The notes under the pieces: model-generated
The model's database searches: none
Told to the model about the DNA's origin: nothing
What the model saw: only the letters and a program-made list of their open reading frames with translations
Made by a program: the position numbers and the translations under genes
Origin: a virus
Reading direction: 5' to 3' (one strand)
Length of the DNA stretch: 25,498 bases
Virus record (IMG/VR): IMGVR_UViG_3300046811_000181
Location: 1-25,498 of that record
Part shown: positions 15,066 to 23,279 of the stretch, piece after piece
Layout of the letters: every line of letters begins with the position of its first letter
How positions within the stretch are numbered: position 1 is the stretch's first letter

Positions 15066-15152
15066 ACGAGCGCGGACCGACCCAAAGGCCGGGCTGCTGG
15101 TCGGCTGGACGGGGAAAACCTGAGTAGCTAGCTCAGGCTGGCCCGCGCTCGT
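15066..15152. other. Structured non-coding region with nested inverted repeats
   Basis: An outer perfect 10-bp pair ACGAGCGCGG (15066-15075) / CCGCGCTCGT (15143-15152) encloses two smaller pairs. These are CCGACC (15077-15082) / GGTCGG (15099-15104) and CCTGAG (15119-15124) / CTCAGG (15132-15137). This makes a three-way-junction-like shape in either strand. It lies in the 148-nt gap between the methyltransferase and the DUF1376 gene. Confidence 0.55.
15115..15137 (-). terminator. Short intrinsic terminator or attenuator, leftward
   Basis: On the minus strand CCTGAG-CTAGCTA-CTCAGG forms a 6-bp stem with 7-nt loop, followed at once by TTTT. It lies 46 nt after the methyltransferase stop. The stem is short, so it may act as a weak terminator or as part of the larger structure around it. 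Confidence 0.5.
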
Positions 15153-15182
15153 CGGCGATTATATGGGATGCGGCCGGCGATC

Positions 15183-16142
15183 TCAACCGGCAACATCAGC
15201 GAACAACGGAGAGTCATCCTCGATGCGGCGCTTTGCCATCTCGGCATAGGCGGGGTTGAGTTCGATGCCGATGGCGCTACGGCCGAGGCGGTCAGCGACG
15301 AGGGCTGTGGTGCCGGCGCCGAGGAAGGGGTCGAGGACAATGCCGCCGGTGGGACAGCCGGCGAGGATGCACGGCTCGACCAGGGCGGGTGGGAAGGTGG
15401 CGAAATGCGCCTCGGGAAACGGCGCGGTCGCTATCGTCCAGACCGAGCGCTTGTTGCGGGAGCCATCCCCCGCCGATCGACTATCAATCCCCGCCGCTTG
15501 CCGTGTCGCAATACTCGGTGCGTGCCATGCAACCCCATCAACCTCATCCATCCCTGAGCGACCGCGCAATAGGCCTATATCTGCCTTCTCCGCAATCGCC
15601 GCCGCATCGAAATAGTACCGCTCGCTCTTGCTCAGCAGGAACAGGTACTCGTGCGCCTTGGTGCAGCGGTCGGTGACGCTCTCGGGCATCGGGTTCGGCT
15701 TCGCCCAGATGATGTCCTGGCGCAGCCACCAGCCGTCCGCCCGTAGCGCAAACGCCAGCATCCAAGGGATGCCGAGCAGGTCTTTCGGCTTTACCCCATC
15801 CGGGTCGGCGGGCCGCAACCCCTCACTGTAGGCATCGCCCTCAAATGCTGGATGGATCTTGCTCTGCCCTGGGTCGCGCGTCTTCCGCCCGCCGCTCGCA
15901 TAGCTGTCGCCGATATTGAGCCAGAGCGTCCCATCGCCCCGCAGCACGCGGCACACCTCACGGAACACCCCGACCATCGCCGCCACGTACTCGTCGGGCG
16001 TCGCCTCGAGGCCGAGCTGCCCGGCCACACCATAATCCCGCAGCCCATAGTACGGCGGCGAGGTCACGCAGCAATGCACACTCTCGGCTGGCAGCTTTGC
16101 TAGCTCGGTCAGCGCGTCACCGACGATGATGCGTGTCGTCAT
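15183..16142 (-). CDS. Beta-class DNA methyltransferase with TSPPY motif
   Basis: A 319-residue S-adenosylmethionine-dependent amino-methyltransferase (N4-cytosine or N6-adenine). The catalytic motif IV TSPPYYGLRDYG is at about 27-38. A middle target-recognition part contains GIPWMLAFALRADGWWLRQD and IIWAKPNPMPESVTDR. The SAM-binding motif I DPFLGAGTTALVADRLGR is at about 271-288. Catalytic before SAM motif defines the beta class. SPPY favours N4-cytosine but is not decisive; 'TSPPYYGLRDYG' is common in phage orphan enzymes. ATG 16142 overlaps the previous stop as ATGA. All key motifs are intact and no cognate restriction enzyme is adjacent. Confidence 0.88.
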   Translation of the reverse strand: MTTRIIVGDALTELAKLPAESVHCCVTSPPYYGLRDYGVAGQLGLEATPDEYVAAMVGVFREVCRVLRGDGTLWLNIGDSYASGGRKTRDPGQSKIHPAFEGDAYSEGLRPADPDGVKPKDLLGIPWMLAFALRADGWWLRQDIIWAKPNPMPESVTDRCTKAHEYLFLLSKSERYYFDAAAIAEKADIGLLRGRSGMDEVDGVAWHAPSIATRQAAGIDSRSAGDGSRNKRSVWTIATAPFPEAHFATFPPALVEPCILAGCPTGGIVLDPFLGAGTTALVADRLGRSAIGIELNPAYAEMAKRRIEDDSPLFADVAG

Positions 16143-16327
16143 CCGTGTTGCAGCCACCAGCGCACCAGCGCCTTGCGCACCCGCTCCCACCCCCGCCGAT
16201 GCGTCGTGTAGCCGAGCGCTTGTCCGGCGTCGCGGGCACTTACGTCCCAATACTTCCAATGCCGGATCATCTCATCGGCGACCTCGCGCGCCGCTTTAAC
16301 ATCTTCTCTGCCAGCCATTGTTCGCAT
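16139..16327 (-). CDS. Small helical protein with HTH-like segment
   Basis: A 62-residue protein starting MRTMAGREDVKAAREVADEM, continuing IRHWKYWDVSARDAGQALGY and ending with basic helix WERVRKALVRWWLQHG. The part DVSARDAGQALGY could be an HTH. ATG 16318 (MAGRED) is an alternative start; both ribosome sites are weak. The DVKAARE codons lie inside a 20-bp direct repeat. The stop overlaps the methyltransferase start as ATGA. Confidence 0.55.
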   Translation of the reverse strand: MRTMAGREDVKAAREVADEMIRHWKYWDVSARDAGQALGYTTHRRGWERVRKALVRWWLQHG

Positions 16328-16527
16328 ATCCCAATCATCTCTGTTTTGGTAAGAAAATACTCGTGGCCGCGGAGCTTGCCCTTCGCCAACGCGATAGCCT
16401 TGATAACAGTCTCTGCCGTCGGCAAATCTTCGCTTGGCTCGGAAGCTGACAGGCGTGCCACAAGAGCGCTCCATAAATCGCCGATAACACCAGTGCCGCC
16501 GTCATGGTTCGCGCGCCGCTTTAACAT
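16267..16527 (-). CDS. Small hypothetical protein lying between a 20-bp direct repeat
   Basis: An 86-residue ORF starting MLKRRANHDGGTGVIGDLWS. The middle has DLPTAETVIKAIALAKGKLR and GHEYFLTKTEMIGICEQWLA, which looks like a real helical protein. The N-terminal MLKRRA and C-terminal MLKRRA are both translations of the same 20-bp repeat. It overlaps the next gene by 61 nt in another frame, unusually much for this genome, so one boundary may be wrong. No family recognised. Confidence 0.5.
   Translation of the reverse strand: MLKRRANHDGGTGVIGDLWSALVARLSASEPSEDLPTAETVIKAIALAKGKLRGHEYFLTKTEMIGICEQWLAEKMLKRRARSPMR
16284..16303. repeat. 20-bp direct repeat, copy A
   Basis: TCGCGCGCCGCTTTAACATC, repeated perfectly at 16509-16528. 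In the 62-aa gene this copy encodes DVKAARE. Confidence 0.8.
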
Positions 16528-19552: not shown

Positions 19553-19752
19553 TCGAAAAGATTTTATGCCCATTTTGTTCAATCCCTTGGTCAGAGGAGA
19601 ACATTCGGGTGTGGGATGTAGATGGTGCCGATCAGTGTGAAAGCGGACGGTTTGAGCCGCCGACCTATTCGATCAGCATTCGTTGTCACGTTTGCAAAAA
19701 AGAGATGTATCGGAAAGAAGGATCGTATGCCGAATATGGAGAGCCGACATGA
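19549..19752 (+). CDS. Small zinc-ribbon-like protein
   Basis: A 67-residue protein starting MIEKILCPFCSIPWSEENIR. It has CPFC near residue 7 and CHVCKKEMYRKEG near residue 47, two knuckles that make a typical zinc ribbon, plus one more Cys between them. AT content is higher than in neighbouring genes. The function is not known. Start and stop overlap the neighbours as ATGA. Confidence 0.65.
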   Translation: MIEKILCPFCSIPWSEENIRVWDVDGADQCESGRFEPPTYSISIRCHVCKKEMYRKEGSYAEYGEPT

Positions 19753-20252
19753 TCCACGACCTCCGCGCCCTCATCCCCGCCCACCGCGCCATCGTGGAGG
19801 CGATCCGCTCCGCTTTCCCCGATGAAACCGACGAAACCTTGGCCGACACCATTGAGGGTGAGAGCGACCTCCCCAGTGCTGTCGTAGCCGTGCTGCGCGC
19901 CGCGCTCGAACGCGAGGCGCAGGCGAAGGCGATCAAGGACGAGCTGATCGCCCGATTGACCGAGCGTGCGCGCCGTTTGGAGGATGGGGCGAAGTCGCTG
20001 CGGGCGGCAGCGCTGCAGGCGATGACCGAGGCGGGACTGCCGAGTATCAAGGCAATCGACATGAGCGTGTCGGTTGGGCGCGGCAAGCCTCGCGTCATCA
20101 TAACTGATCCCGCGCAAGTGCCCGATGCACTGTGCAAGATCGTGCGCGAGCCCTCGAAGACGCTGATCGCCAATGCCATCGCAAACACAGGAGACGTGCC
20201 CGGCGCGACGCTCGGCAATCCTCAGCCGTTTCTCACGATCCATAGGGGTTGA
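19749..20252 (+). CDS. Siphovirus Gp157-family protein
   Basis: A 167-residue protein. An N-terminal segment has DETLADTIEGESDLPSAVVA, then a long coiled coil (LIARLTERARRLEDGAKSLR and AAALQAMTEAGLPSI). Next comes KAIDMSVSVGRGKPRVIITD with DALCKIVREPSKTLI, and the end is NPQPFLTIHRG. This order (ETL.DTLE, coiled coil, G..K......S......PP.V.I.D.....P) is that of the phage Gp157 family. Members occur beside single-strand annealing and SSB genes, and one is linked to phage resistance. It lies upstream of the Rad52-like gene and probably acts with recombination; biochemistry is unknown. ATG 19749 overlaps the preceding stop as ATGA. Confidence 0.8.
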   Translation: MIHDLRALIPAHRAIVEAIRSAFPDETDETLADTIEGESDLPSAVVAVLRAALEREAQAKAIKDELIARLTERARRLEDGAKSLRAAALQAMTEAGLPSIKAIDMSVSVGRGKPRVIITDPAQVPDALCKIVREPSKTLIANAIANTGDVPGATLGNPQPFLTIHRG

Positions 20253-20254
20253 AC

Positions 20255-20506
20255 ATGAGCGACGGACTGAAACGGGCAAAAGCGGCAGCCGAAGCCACAC
20301 GGATGACACCGGACCAAATGGAATTTTTGCGTCTCATTGCTCCTTATAGGCACGGCGCTGATCGATTTCGATTGCCCGAGGCCACGCGCGAGAATGATCG
20401 CATTCGCCAATCTTGTCGACGGCAAGGATGGACGAAGTTTCAGTTGGGCAGATGGGTTCTAACTGATGTAGGGCGTGCAGCTCTTGAGAGATATTATGAT
20501 GCCTGA
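20255..20506 (+). CDS. Small winged-helix-like hypothetical protein
   Basis: An 83-residue basic protein starting MSDGLKRAKAAAEATRMTPD. The part QMEFLRLIAPYRHGADRFRL followed by RQGWTKFQLGRWVLTDVGRA resembles a small winged helix (helix, helix, beta wing with W.LTD.GR.AL). ATG 20255 is preceded by AGGGG; an in-frame TTG at 20249 is less likely. The stop overlaps the next gene by 8 nt. Confidence 0.6.
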   Translation: MSDGLKRAKAAAEATRMTPDQMEFLRLIAPYRHGADRFRLPEATRENDRIRQSCRRQGWTKFQLGRWVLTDVGRAALERYYDA

Positions 20507-20885
20507 CCCACAGACCGACGCGCAGCTCGTGGAAGACGACGCCGATGGAGGGGTGGCAGAGCGGACTATTGCAGAGGTCGCACCTCAGCCTCGGATTCTA
20601 GAAACTCCGGGGTTCGCGGGTTCGAATCCCGCCCCCTCCTTCACCACTTCCGATCCACAGACCGACGACGCGCAGCTCGCGGAAGACGACGCCGGCATCC
20701 TCGCCGCAGCGGTGGCGCTGTGCTGGCACGCGAGGCCGATGCTGAGCGTAGGAGAGGCATTTTATCACGCCACTCCGCAAGAGTGGTGGGCGCGGCAACC
20801 CGAGATGGAGCGCCGCCTGCACATCGGCCGAGCTCGTGTGGCCGTAGAGGCTTGGGAAGATTTCTGGAAGGAGCGCGGACGATGA
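20499..20885 (+). CDS. Acidic protein whose ORF contains an embedded tRNA-like gene
   Basis: A 128-residue ORF starting MPDPQTDAQLVEDDADGGVA. Residues of about 17-50 are a translation of the tRNA-like element (the AGSNPAPS sequence is typical of a tRNA T-arm read as protein). After it the N-terminal sequence recurs as SDPQTDDAQLAEDDAG, and a normal-looking domain follows: ILAAAVALCWHARPMLSVGE with WWARQPEMERRLHIGRA. The reading frame stays open through the insertion because the distance between repeats is 147 nt. Without the insertion the protein would be about 79 residues. ATG 20499 gives an 8-nt overlap (ATGCCTGA); 20496 is an alternative. Confidence 0.5.
   Translation: MPDPQTDAQLVEDDADGGVAERTIAEVAPQPRILETPGFAGSNPAPSFTTSDPQTDDAQLAEDDAGILAAAVALCWHARPMLSVGEAFYHATPQEWWARQPEMERRLHIGRARVAVEAWEDFWKERGR
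20508..20544 (+). repeat. Direct repeat flanking tRNA-like element, left copy
   Basis: A 37-nt copy beginning CCACAGACCGAC and ending GAAGACGACGCCG. It matches the right copy except for a GAC insertion and one T/C change. Confidence 0.8.
20547..20640 (+). tRNA. tRNA-like gene, class II size, amino acid undetermined
   Basis: The acceptor stem GGAGGGG (20547-20553) pairs perfectly with CCCCTCC (20633-20639). A D-arm GCA..TGC follows, with an 11-nt loop containing GG. The T-arm GCGGG-TTCGAAT-CCCGC (20616-20632) is perfect and canonical. A long variable arm pairs CCTCGGA with TCCGGGG (20589-20612) with one G-T. The anticodon arm is irregular: GAGG/CCTC closes only five bases. A looser fold with one A-A mismatch exposes loop GTCGCAC, giving anticodon CGC with the required T33. 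CCA is not encoded. This looks like a serine/leucine-shaped phage tRNA or a degenerate one. Charging identity cannot be assigned by eye. Confidence 0.6.
20655..20694 (+). repeat. Direct repeat flanking tRNA-like element, right copy
   Basis: A 40-nt copy of 20508-20544, beginning CCACAGACCGACGAC. Together they bracket the tRNA-like element within about 110 nt. Confidence 0.8.
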
Positions 20886-21121
20886 GCACACCACAATGGT
20901 TCGCCGAGTTTGAGCGGCAGGAAGCCATGCGCGAGGAGCGGCTTGAACAGACCCGTGCTCGGGTAGCTGAGTGGCGCAAAAGCATTGGCGTGCCTATCCG
21001 CACCTGCCCCGTTACCCATACCGTTGCCAGGACACTCGTTGCGCCCGCGATTGGTGCCGCCGAGAGGAGCATTACCCATGACCGACATTGCCGTTGCCGC
21101 CAAGCTCGCCGCCCCGTTTGA
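20882..21121 (+). CDS. Small helical hypothetical protein
   Basis: A 79-residue protein starting MSTPQWFAEFERQEAMREER, continuing LEQTRARVAEWRKSIGVPIR. The first half is a charged coiled coil. The last 15 residues are read over the start of the Rad52-like gene in another frame (44-nt overlap), so the true end is uncertain only in the sense of function, not frame. ATG 20882 overlaps the preceding stop as ATGA. Confidence 0.55.
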   Translation: MSTPQWFAEFERQEAMREERLEQTRARVAEWRKSIGVPIRTCPVTHTVARTLVAPAIGAAERSITHDRHCRCRQARRPV

Positions 21122-21872
21122 TCCTCAGATCGTGTCGTGGCGCGTTGGGCCAACAAACCAGGACAAGACGAAGGGCATGGCCCTCGCCTACATCGATGCC
21201 CGTGACGTGATGCGCCGGCTCGACGAAGTGTGCGGCCCCGAGAACTGGCAGGACAACTACCCGTGGTCAGATGGCAAGCGCGTCGTTTGCAGCATCGGCA
21301 TCAAGTGCGTTGGTGATGACGAGATGGGCAGCAGGTCGGAGTGGGTCTGGAAGACCGATGGCGCGGGCGACAGCGACATGGAGGGTGAGAAGGGCGCGCT
21401 CAGCGATGCATTCAAGCGCGCCGCCGTGAAGTGGGGCATCGGTCGCTATCTCTACGATACAGACAGTCCGTGGGTCCAGATCGAGCCGCGCGGCAAGAGC
21501 TTCTTTATCCCGGATTCGGAGAAGGCGAAACTCATCAACCTTCTCCGCCGACAGTTCCCGGCCGCGCCGCAGCAACAGGAAAGGAACGCCACGAATGGGG
21601 CGGGGGCCGGTGCGGCTGGGAACCCCTTGACGCCCGCTGCGGCGACGGCGCATCCGACCGAGCGCGAGCGGCAGGTGTTGGCGGCCCGTGAGGCACGGAA
21701 AAAGATTATCGAGGCCCTAGGTGCAGCGAGGACGCCCGCTATTATCGACGAGGTGATCGTCCGCAATACAGAGATGTTGGAACAGATCAAGGGCCTGCAT
21801 GCTCCAAGCTATGATGCCATCATGGCACTGTCCGTCAGGCTCAAAACCGAGATATTGGCGAGCACAGGCTGA
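21078..21872 (+). CDS. Rad52/Rad22-family single-strand annealing protein
   Basis: A 264-residue recombination protein that anneals complementary single strands. The N-terminal core has VSWRVGPTNQDKTKGMALAY, then DVMRRLDEVCGPENWQDNYP, CSIGIKCVGDDEMGSRSEWV and ALSDAFKRAAVKWGIGRYLY. This is the Rad52 fold signature (W.........YID.R.V...L....G...W.......A.S.A.KRAA..WGIGRYLY). The C-terminal third is a linker rich in Ala/Gly/Gln followed by a helical part, probably for partner contacts. ATG 21078 is preceded by GAGAGGAG. It works with the Gp157-family gene upstream, and perhaps with the nucleases of the leftward block. Confidence 0.88.
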   Translation: MTDIAVAAKLAAPFDPQIVSWRVGPTNQDKTKGMALAYIDARDVMRRLDEVCGPENWQDNYPWSDGKRVVCSIGIKCVGDDEMGSRSEWVWKTDGAGDSDMEGEKGALSDAFKRAAVKWGIGRYLYDTDSPWVQIEPRGKSFFIPDSEKAKLINLLRRQFPAAPQQQERNATNGAGAGAAGNPLTPAAATAHPTERERQVLAAREARKKIIEALGAARTPAIIDEVIVRNTEMLEQIKGLHAPSYDAIMALSVRLKTEILASTG

Positions 21873-22483
21873 TGACCGTCCCCTCATTCCACGTCGAGGC
21901 GAAGAAAATCGCTTACAGACAGAGCCGCGATGGCCTCGTGGTCTCGTTCGTCATTCATCCGAACGATATGCCCGACGCGCTCGCCGTTGCCCCGCTCGGG
22001 CAGCGGTACATGCTCGCGCTGGCGGCAATCGGAGACGATGAGAGACCTATCCCCGTGGTGGACCAGAGCCACCTATCCCGCGTCGACAACCCCGGAGTAG
22101 GAGCCACGCCGGCCGCTCCTTCGGCGGGTGATGCGGGGCTTGGCCGAACAGCTGGTTCGATTCCAGCGACGGGGGCCAATCATTTCCTCGCCTCCGAGCG
22201 CGGCAAGGCGCGCTACGCCTCCGCGAGCGACATGGAGCGGGCGCGCACGCGGGCGGCGCTGCTGCCCAAGGATGCACGATTTCAGAAATGGGTGATCGAC
22301 CGGAACTGGGTCGCCGATGACCTGCTATCGAACGAAGATGCCGCCGCCTTCTATATCCGCGAGTACGCCTGCGCGGGGGAGAGCCGCAAGCTGATCGCCG
22401 AGGACGAGGCGTGCTACCGGGCATTCGTCGCGATGGAAACGGATTATCTTCTTGCCATCGGGGCGTTACCAGAACCGAGATGA
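21872..22483 (+). CDS. Early-region two-part protein interrupted by a tRNA-like sequence
   Basis: A 203-residue ORF. The first part starts MTVPSFHVEAKKIAYRQSRD, continues VVSFVIHPNDMPDALAVAPL and GQRYMLALAAIGDDERP, and matches the common phage early protein 'FHFEAKK.A..Q...G.V....IHP.D.P......G.RY.V.L'. The last part (LLPKDARFQKWVIDRNWVAD and NEDAAAFYIREYACAGESRK) is the partner domain usually found in this protein ('C.D..F..WL....'). Residues of about 70-102 are Gly/Ala/Pro-rich and include AGSIPATGA, a translation of the tRNA-like T-arm and CCA end at 22151-22178. The start overlaps the Rad52-like stop as TGATG. Function is unknown, probably recombination-linked. Confidence 0.65.
   Translation: MTVPSFHVEAKKIAYRQSRDGLVVSFVIHPNDMPDALAVAPLGQRYMLALAAIGDDERPIPVVDQSHLSRVDNPGVGATPAAPSAGDAGLGRTAGSIPATGANHFLASERGKARYASASDMERARTRAALLPKDARFQKWVIDRNWVADDLLSNEDAAAFYIREYACAGESRKLIAEDEACYRAFVAMETDYLLAIGALPEPR
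22090..22178 (+). tRNA. tRNA-like sequence or pseudo-tRNA with encoded CCA
   Basis: The 3' part is convincing: T-arm GCTGG-TTCGATT-CCAGC (22151-22167), then GACGGGG, discriminator G and CCA (22176-22178). The 5' CCCCG (22090-22094) can pair with CGGGG, followed by two G-A mismatches. AGGAGC/GCTCCT (22099-22120) could be a D-like arm and TTCGGC/GCCGAA (22120-22148) an anticodon-like arm, but with a 17-nt loop. It is a cloverleaf-like shape, not a normal tRNA. It may instead be only the 3' end of a tRNA, as in a phage attachment site. Confidence 0.35.
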
Positions 22484-22758
22484 CAGAGATGATGAAAATA
22501 AGAACCATACCAGCCGGCATCACTTGGAAGCGTACCGGGCGACGATCATGGATCTGTACAATAAGGCGTGAACCAGAGGTCATCTATAACTTGTCCGATA
22601 TGACGGCTATGAGTCCGTATGCCGCTCTCGGTGGACCTGGGTTCTTGACGCAGCAATCGTTGGGAAGATGCCCTTTCTGCGGTCAGTCGCGGAACTTGGT
22701 GGGACATCAGGGGCCTCTGGGTGTCTTCGCCGGACTCTTCGGAGGATTCGGAGGATGA
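22480..22758 (+). CDS. Small protein with zinc knuckle and Gly/Phe tail
   Basis: A 92-residue protein starting MTEMMKIRTIPAGITWKRTG. It contains GRCPFCGQSRNLVGHQGPLG, a CPFCG knuckle, and ends VFAGLFGGFGG, an unusual Gly/Phe-rich tail. Only one Cys pair plus a His is present, so zinc binding may need a dimer or the first Cys (WICTI). No family is recognised. Start and stop overlap neighbours as ATGA. Confidence 0.55.
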   Translation: MTEMMKIRTIPAGITWKRTGRRSWICTIRREPEVIYNLSDMTAMSPYAALGGPGFLTQQSLGRCPFCGQSRNLVGHQGPLGVFAGLFGGFGG

Positions 22759-23279
22759 CCGGCACCCGACTGAACGACTGCACCCCCACGCCTGACGAAC
22801 AGGCGAAGTACGGGGCGGCCTCTGCCGCCGAGCGCGAGGCGCAGATACGCCAGCGAACTACAGAAGCATACGCCTTCACTTGTTCCGATAGTGGCATATC
22901 GAATGCGCGGCTCGACCGCGTTGAACTGCTCCGCCTCCTCGACGAGGCCCGCGCCGAGATCGCCCGGCTGCGCGCCCCGCCCGCGGTCGACGTGATGGAG
23001 TTGGCCCGACAGTTGTTACCGATGGGTGATGGTAGAGGTTGCTGGAATTTCGACGCAATACGAGAGCGCGTTGCACGCGCCCTCACCGTCTACGGCGACC
23101 AGCGCGCCCGCGAGGCCCGCGCGGCGGCGATCGAGGCAGTAAAAGAAGCATTGATTCCAACCCCAGACACGCTAACAAACGAATGGGCATTTGGCTGGGA
23201 TCATGCACGAGACAAGGCGTTGTTGGCTCTTCGCGCCCTCGCCGCCACCCCGCCGCAGTCCGAGGGAGGCGAGGGATGA
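22755..23279 (+). CDS. Coiled-coil hypothetical protein
   Basis: A 174-residue protein starting MTGTRLNDCTPTPDEQAKYG. A coiled coil lies at about 55-80 (DRVELLRLLDEARAEIARLR). Two helical parts follow, with REARAAAIEAVKEALIPTPD and WAFGWDHARDKALLALRALA. Similar mosaics of coiled coil plus 'AA.EA..A' repeats occur in phage early operons without known function. ATGA overlaps at both ends. Confidence 0.6.
   Translation: MTGTRLNDCTPTPDEQAKYGAASAAEREAQIRQRTTEAYAFTCSDSGISNARLDRVELLRLLDEARAEIARLRAPPAVDVMELARQLLPMGDGRGCWNFDAIRERVARALTVYGDQRAREARAAAIEAVKEALIPTPDTLTNEWAFGWDHARDKALLALRALAATPPQSEGGEG

Follow-up and report, generated by a model that had tools for sequence, protein, structure and literature searches.

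Phages commonly carry tRNA genes, and mosaicism of phage genomes through annealing proteins is well established. Phage annealing proteins work well on homologies that are short and diverged, and in recombining diverged sequences the Erf protein of phage D3 matches the efficiency of Red beta (PMC3945230). Rickettsia palindromic elements (RPEs) are small structured elements that are inserted in frame in protein genes (PMC2229807).

In this study, we characterized a tRNA-Ser-like element that lies in frame within a small protein gene of a virus. The window, that is, the whole stretch of DNA analysed, is the 25,498-base virus record IMGVR_UViG_3300046811_000181, and all coordinates refer to it. 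It codes for terminase, portal, primosomal, methyltransferase, Mu Gam-like, and Erf-like proteins, and because of this gene set we regard it as a tailed phage. Like other phage-carried tRNA genes, the element is a host-type tRNA on a phage genome, and a relative of the window has an intact tRNA-Asn; unlike them, it is broken and located inside a coding sequence. It has the acceptor, D arm, T arm, and long variable arm of a class II tRNA-Ser (RF00005), but differs from it in a 3-nt anticodon loop, a 29-nt variable region, the lack of a terminal CCA, and its location in an ORF. With the mosaicism attributed to Rad52-like/Erf proteins (PMC3945230), the phage group studied here shares the recombination of short or diverged homologies, the exchange of gene fragments, and the presence of erf, whereas many of its insertions leave a second copy of 14-40 nt and several are in frame within genes. 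RPEs (PMC2229807) are also small structured segments tolerated in frame within protein genes. However, they form repeated families with inverted ends, while for the element described here neither a repeated family nor terminal inverted repeats were found, and its cargo is a tRNA relic with a 40-nt flanking repeat.

Results

The gene that harbors the element (20499-20885, + strand; product MPDPQTDAQLVEDDAD...KERGR), supported by the ORF list and by homologues, is a small early phage gene of unassigned function. It is part of a rightward gene run composed of gam-like (19683-20252), a small gene ending at 20506, the gene itself, and erf (21078-21872, + strand), which codes for an Erf-like single-strand annealing protein (PHROG 1097, E 1.2e-46). 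The ATG at 20499 overlaps the stop of the preceding gene, the stop codon is at 20885, and the ORF list shows that the frame stays open right through the tRNA element. Codon usage in this gene is phage-like before and after the insert, and not within it.

ARAGORN called a single tRNA in the window, at 20547-20640 (+), within the gene in which the original prediction had placed one. Its label, Gly(acc), proved unreliable and was discarded, as U33 is missing and the loop is wrong. Since ARAGORN made 5 calls in 400 dinucleotide-shuffled windows, a lone call is about a 1% event and constitutes weak evidence. A fast Rfam scan of the whole window missed the element, presumably an effect of its speed filters. 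On the 110-nt stretch 20541-20650, RF00005 scored 33.4 bits against a gathering cut-off of 29 (21.1 bits at another placement), so that the covariance model did not reject a tRNA; for comparison, a real tRNA-Ser in L020 reached 59.3 bits with RF00005. We then used a tRNA-Ser covariance model (R1) made from seven tRNA-Ser genes, with the window left out. This model gave the element 69.1 bits (E 1.9e-16 over 150 kb), and only 37.5 bits to the true tRNA-Asn of the relative G003. Therefore, the element descends from a tRNA-Ser, with a class II body and a long variable arm. The tRNA-Ser(UGA) of Salicola phage SCTP-2 is 87.9% identical to it over 33 bases of the 5' part, and searches of GTDB contigs for a source tRNA sharing its 5' half came back empty. 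Reading the 3' half as a suppressor-type (CTA) tRNA, based on a short match to the tRNA-Sup of Xanthomonas phage XacN1, was no better than serine and was set aside.

The element reads GGAGGGG-TG-GCAGAGCGGACTATTGC-A-GAGGT-CGC-ACCTC-(29 nt)-GCGGG-TTCGAAT-CCCGC-CCCCTCC-T on the + strand, in the direction of the ORF. As initially described, the acceptor and T arms are perfect: GGAGGGG at 20547-20553 pairs 7/7 with CCCCTCC at 20633-20639, and the T arm GCGGG-TTCGAAT-CCCGC (20616-20632) has 5/5 pairs. The D arm GCAGAGCGGACTATTGC (20556-20572) is of the tRNA-Ser type, with a 3-bp stem, A14, and G18G19; T8 and the TTCGAA of the T loop are kept as well. The damage is confined to the anticodon loop and the variable arm. 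The anticodon arm GAGGT-CGC-ACCTC (20574-20586) has a 5-bp stem and a loop of just 3 nt (CGC), and the long variable region (20587-20615, 29 nt) folds into a hairpin of 7-9 bp. The element lacks the usual 7-nt anticodon loop with its U33 and has no readable anticodon, other registers giving poor stems, and no CCA directly follows the discriminator. Hence, the prediction of a tRNA-like gene in frame within a protein gene stands, with the correction that this is not a canonical tRNA. The element is tRNA-shaped, and with a 3-nt anticodon loop it cannot perform normal decoding. Judging from its sequence, it is probably not a working tRNA.

A second tRNA candidate was rejected. At 22044-22179, in the gene 21872-22483, there is a T-loop-like hairpin. 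Compared with L009/L011, its stem carries paired changes (GCTGG/CCAGC to GTGGG/CCCGC); the sequence at this position in G004 and G006 is unrelated. Rfam detected only a T-arm fragment (11.8 bits), L009 showed no tRNA family, and the 96-nt fold was no better than shuffles.

On both sides of the tRNA-Ser-like element lies a repeated coding stretch, GACCCACAGACCGACGCGCAGCTCG.GGAAGACGACGCCG, which is the gene's own N-terminal code. The left copy (20505-20544, +) is 40 nt long and codes for DPQTDAQLVEDDA. The right copy (20652-20694, +), separated from the tRNA end by the 11-nt spacer TCACCACTTCC (20641-20651, +), is 43 nt long and codes for DPQTDDAQLAEDDAG, with one extra GAC. The two copies are 88% identical, the differences being two substitutions and this GAC, which agrees with the flanking direct repeats noted earlier. 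The net extra length is 147 nt, and the frame is kept open, as anticipated.

The gene family comprises the window and seven IMG/VR contigs, some of them identical and all of them metagenomic. Five related contigs (G004, G005, G006, G007, and L004; four distinct sequences) lack the insert, and none of the homologous proteins carries the segment. In G004 to G007 the repeat is present as one copy, reading MPDPQTDAQLAEDDAG (in G007, MPDPQTVAQLAEDDAG), and L004 begins inside the repeat. The left copy of the window matches the single copy of G004 at 39/40 positions, and the extra GAC of the right copy is also present in L004. A 40/43-nt repeat that is single in relatives without the insert is what the suggested arrival of the element with a duplication of target DNA would give, a pattern that either gain in the window or loss in the relatives could produce. 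The 121-nt stretch containing the element was found in the window only, among ten family records, and its 26-nt middle matched no IMG/VR contig.

Two contigs that are identical here and come from two samples (G001 and G002) have a different, unrelated 73-nt insert at the same N-terminal site. It codes for ASPHSWYGPCDSLAPNGQCAECLKV, has a 20-nt stretch of repeated gene sequence (CGCGCAGCTCGCGGAGGACG) on each side, and is also in frame (net 93 nt).

AlphaFold2, run with six homologues, gave a pLDDT <50 for residues 1-58, which comprise the tail and the tRNA-coded part, and a helical body with pLDDT mostly 78-88; overall confidence in this model is modest (mean pLDDT 60.9) and the disorder of the tail is a prediction only.

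Comparison of the window with its relatives revealed 51 clean insertion loci. At 16 of them the flanks overlap by at least 14 nt in the relative, which amounts to about 13 distinct events, as some loci represent one event seen in two contigs. The direct repeats are 14-40 nt long and single elsewhere. Under a chance model with random junctions, 0.5% of insertions are expected to be repeat-flanked; the observed 16/51 is an enrichment. Six Rhizobium temperate phages with a similar summed aligned length, used as a control, had 4 insertions, 2 of them with repeats. Repeat flanks were consequently rejected as a hallmark of this family only; the family stands out by how many insertions it has (51 vs 4). 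Net lengths are divisible by 3 in about ten of the listed events, and the corresponding binomial P of about 0.016 for 10/16 is a guide only, as the list includes shared events. Several insertions are in frame within genes, for example in the erf of G007.

Two sites have been used twice with different cargo: the N-terminus of the gene 20499-20885 and the block TCGGCGATTATATGGGATGCGGTCGG (window 15149-15186). This block of about 35 nt is single in the window. In G003, two copies of it enclose a 238-nt insert containing an intact tRNA-Asn(GTT) with CCA (L041 6961-7037, - strand). G007 has at the same block a 93-nt insert (L043 10722-10814, - strand) that folds far beyond shuffles (z -4.3); Rfam had no match for it, and in IMG/VR its 28-nt core was found only in its own contig. 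Across the family, the cargos share no common sequence or ends.

Other repeats were observed along the window. A 205-nt insert at 16304-16508 lies between direct repeats TCGCGCGCCGCTTTAACATC and is missing from G003, G005, and G007. Gene-boundary sequences with start codons (e.g., GAGGAGGACGGACGATGAC) are repeated at 12456-12489/12708-12741 and at 12052-12086/12233-12266, and may represent recombination boundaries. The MTGTRLNDC gene (22668-23279 in the window) varies in length between relatives, by in-frame steps of 57, 90, and 354 nt that are bounded by repeats.

Discussion

We consider it fairly probable that the tRNA-Ser relic is the cargo of one of the many short insertions that these phages seem to have acquired, captured between short direct repeats and tolerated in frame. 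A copy of a tRNA-Ser gene may have been picked up as insertion cargo, its anticodon loop being cut to 3 nt before or after capture. The homology would be provided by the beginning of the gene itself, where a stretch of about 40 nt is strongly conserved among relatives. Annealing or template switching at this stretch would have brought in the foreign DNA and duplicated the stretch. The presence of erf just downstream suggests that the phage Erf annealing protein plausibly helped. We propose that the insert is tolerated because it is in frame, with no stop in the used frame, and falls in a predicted disordered N-terminal tail. In such a case, the element would be a molecular fossil devoid of tRNA function and probably read as a 35-residue linker, rather than a decoding tRNA. 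Translation through the element would be expected on this account, giving the peptide ILETPGFAGSNPAPS.

Several of our data weigh against this explanation. The family consists of seven contigs besides the window, with identical and exclusively metagenomic members, and GTDB contigs yielded no source tRNA matching the 5' half. The repeats of the Rhizobium control indicate that repeats alone show no unusual process. Moreover, the two repeat copies differ, and the GAC of the right one is common to L004, which would fit recombination between variants or loss in a relative. Along these lines, the arrangement of repeat, cargo, and repeat could be ancestral, or derive from recombination of two gene variants, the relatives having lost the cargo by annealing of the repeats. 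Deletion between direct repeats is commonplace, and the window shares its type of gene body (HARP) with G001 and L004. However, separate gains better explain why G001/G002 have another cargo at this site and the remaining relatives have no cargo, and the left repeat is nearly identical to the single copy of G004. We therefore infer a gain of the cassette in the window, and regard an old cassette with loss in the relatives as unlikely.

On the other hand, the element might be a functional tRNA-like processing signal in the mRNA. Recognition by RNase P and RNase Z, or by SerRS, would then lead to its cutting or binding and so control the gene 20499-20885, and perhaps downstream genes including erf. 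SerRS recognises the body and the long arm of tRNA-Ser, not the anticodon. The perfect acceptor, D, and T arms, the mRNA sense of the element, and damage found only in the anticodon loop and variable arm are in agreement with such a role. Against it, the element occurs in one phage only, while relatives keep the gene order without it, and about two damaging events would suffice, so that an intact body is not unlikely by chance. Besides, no CCA directly follows the discriminator, and cutting would part the start codon from the gene body. A processing signal is thus quite improbable. Should the element nonetheless be processed as RNA, phage mRNA would be split by a new mechanism.

The original prediction also considered a trapped mobile tRNA, a notion that has lost ground. 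A dedicated small mobile element duplicating its target, be it RPE- or MITE-like or a tRNA retroposon, would explain the apparent target duplication, the structured RNA, and the in-frame site, which recall RPEs (PMC2229807), as well as the structured 93-nt insert of G007 and the tRNA-Asn insert of G003 at one site. Nevertheless, an unrelated in-frame cargo occupies the same site in G001/G002, and the many repeat-bounded inserts carry unrelated cargos without common sequence or ends, between repeats that range from 14 to 40 nt. Multiple copies with inverted repeats at their ends, as in RPEs or MITEs, were found neither in the family records nor in IMG/VR. The 121-nt stretch had no further copies in the family, nor had the 26-nt middle or the 28-nt core of G007 in IMG/VR. 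The clean CCA junction of a retroposed mature tRNA is absent, and a dedicated mobile element is accordingly very unlikely. As to a prophage attachment site (attP) in a tRNA gene, which would have the 3' tRNA part beside an integrase gene and recur in related phages, the element sequence is in no family contig besides the window. An artefact of metagenome assembly, with two phage variants fused at the repeat, is hardly credible either: direct repeats are typical misassembly places and the element is in a single contig, but the frame is intact, the tRNA body is whole, and another in-frame insert occupies the same site in two contigs from two samples (G001 and G002).

A broader proposal is that an insertion process favouring certain sites operates in this phage lineage. 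It would bring short foreign segments, such as tRNA genes and structured RNAs, into early genes with target duplications of 14-40 nt, often in frame, and would frequently turn non-coding RNA genes into new parts of proteins. We regard this generalization as doubtful.

In the open-access literature searched, we found no description of a host gene that reads a tRNA-Ser relic in frame between repeats of its own sequence. Lying between such repeats, this relic offers a readable case in which a non-coding RNA sequence has apparently made protein sequence, with the uninterrupted site kept in relatives. A phage group with frequent small in-frame gains or losses between short repeats may also provide a model for phage gene growth.
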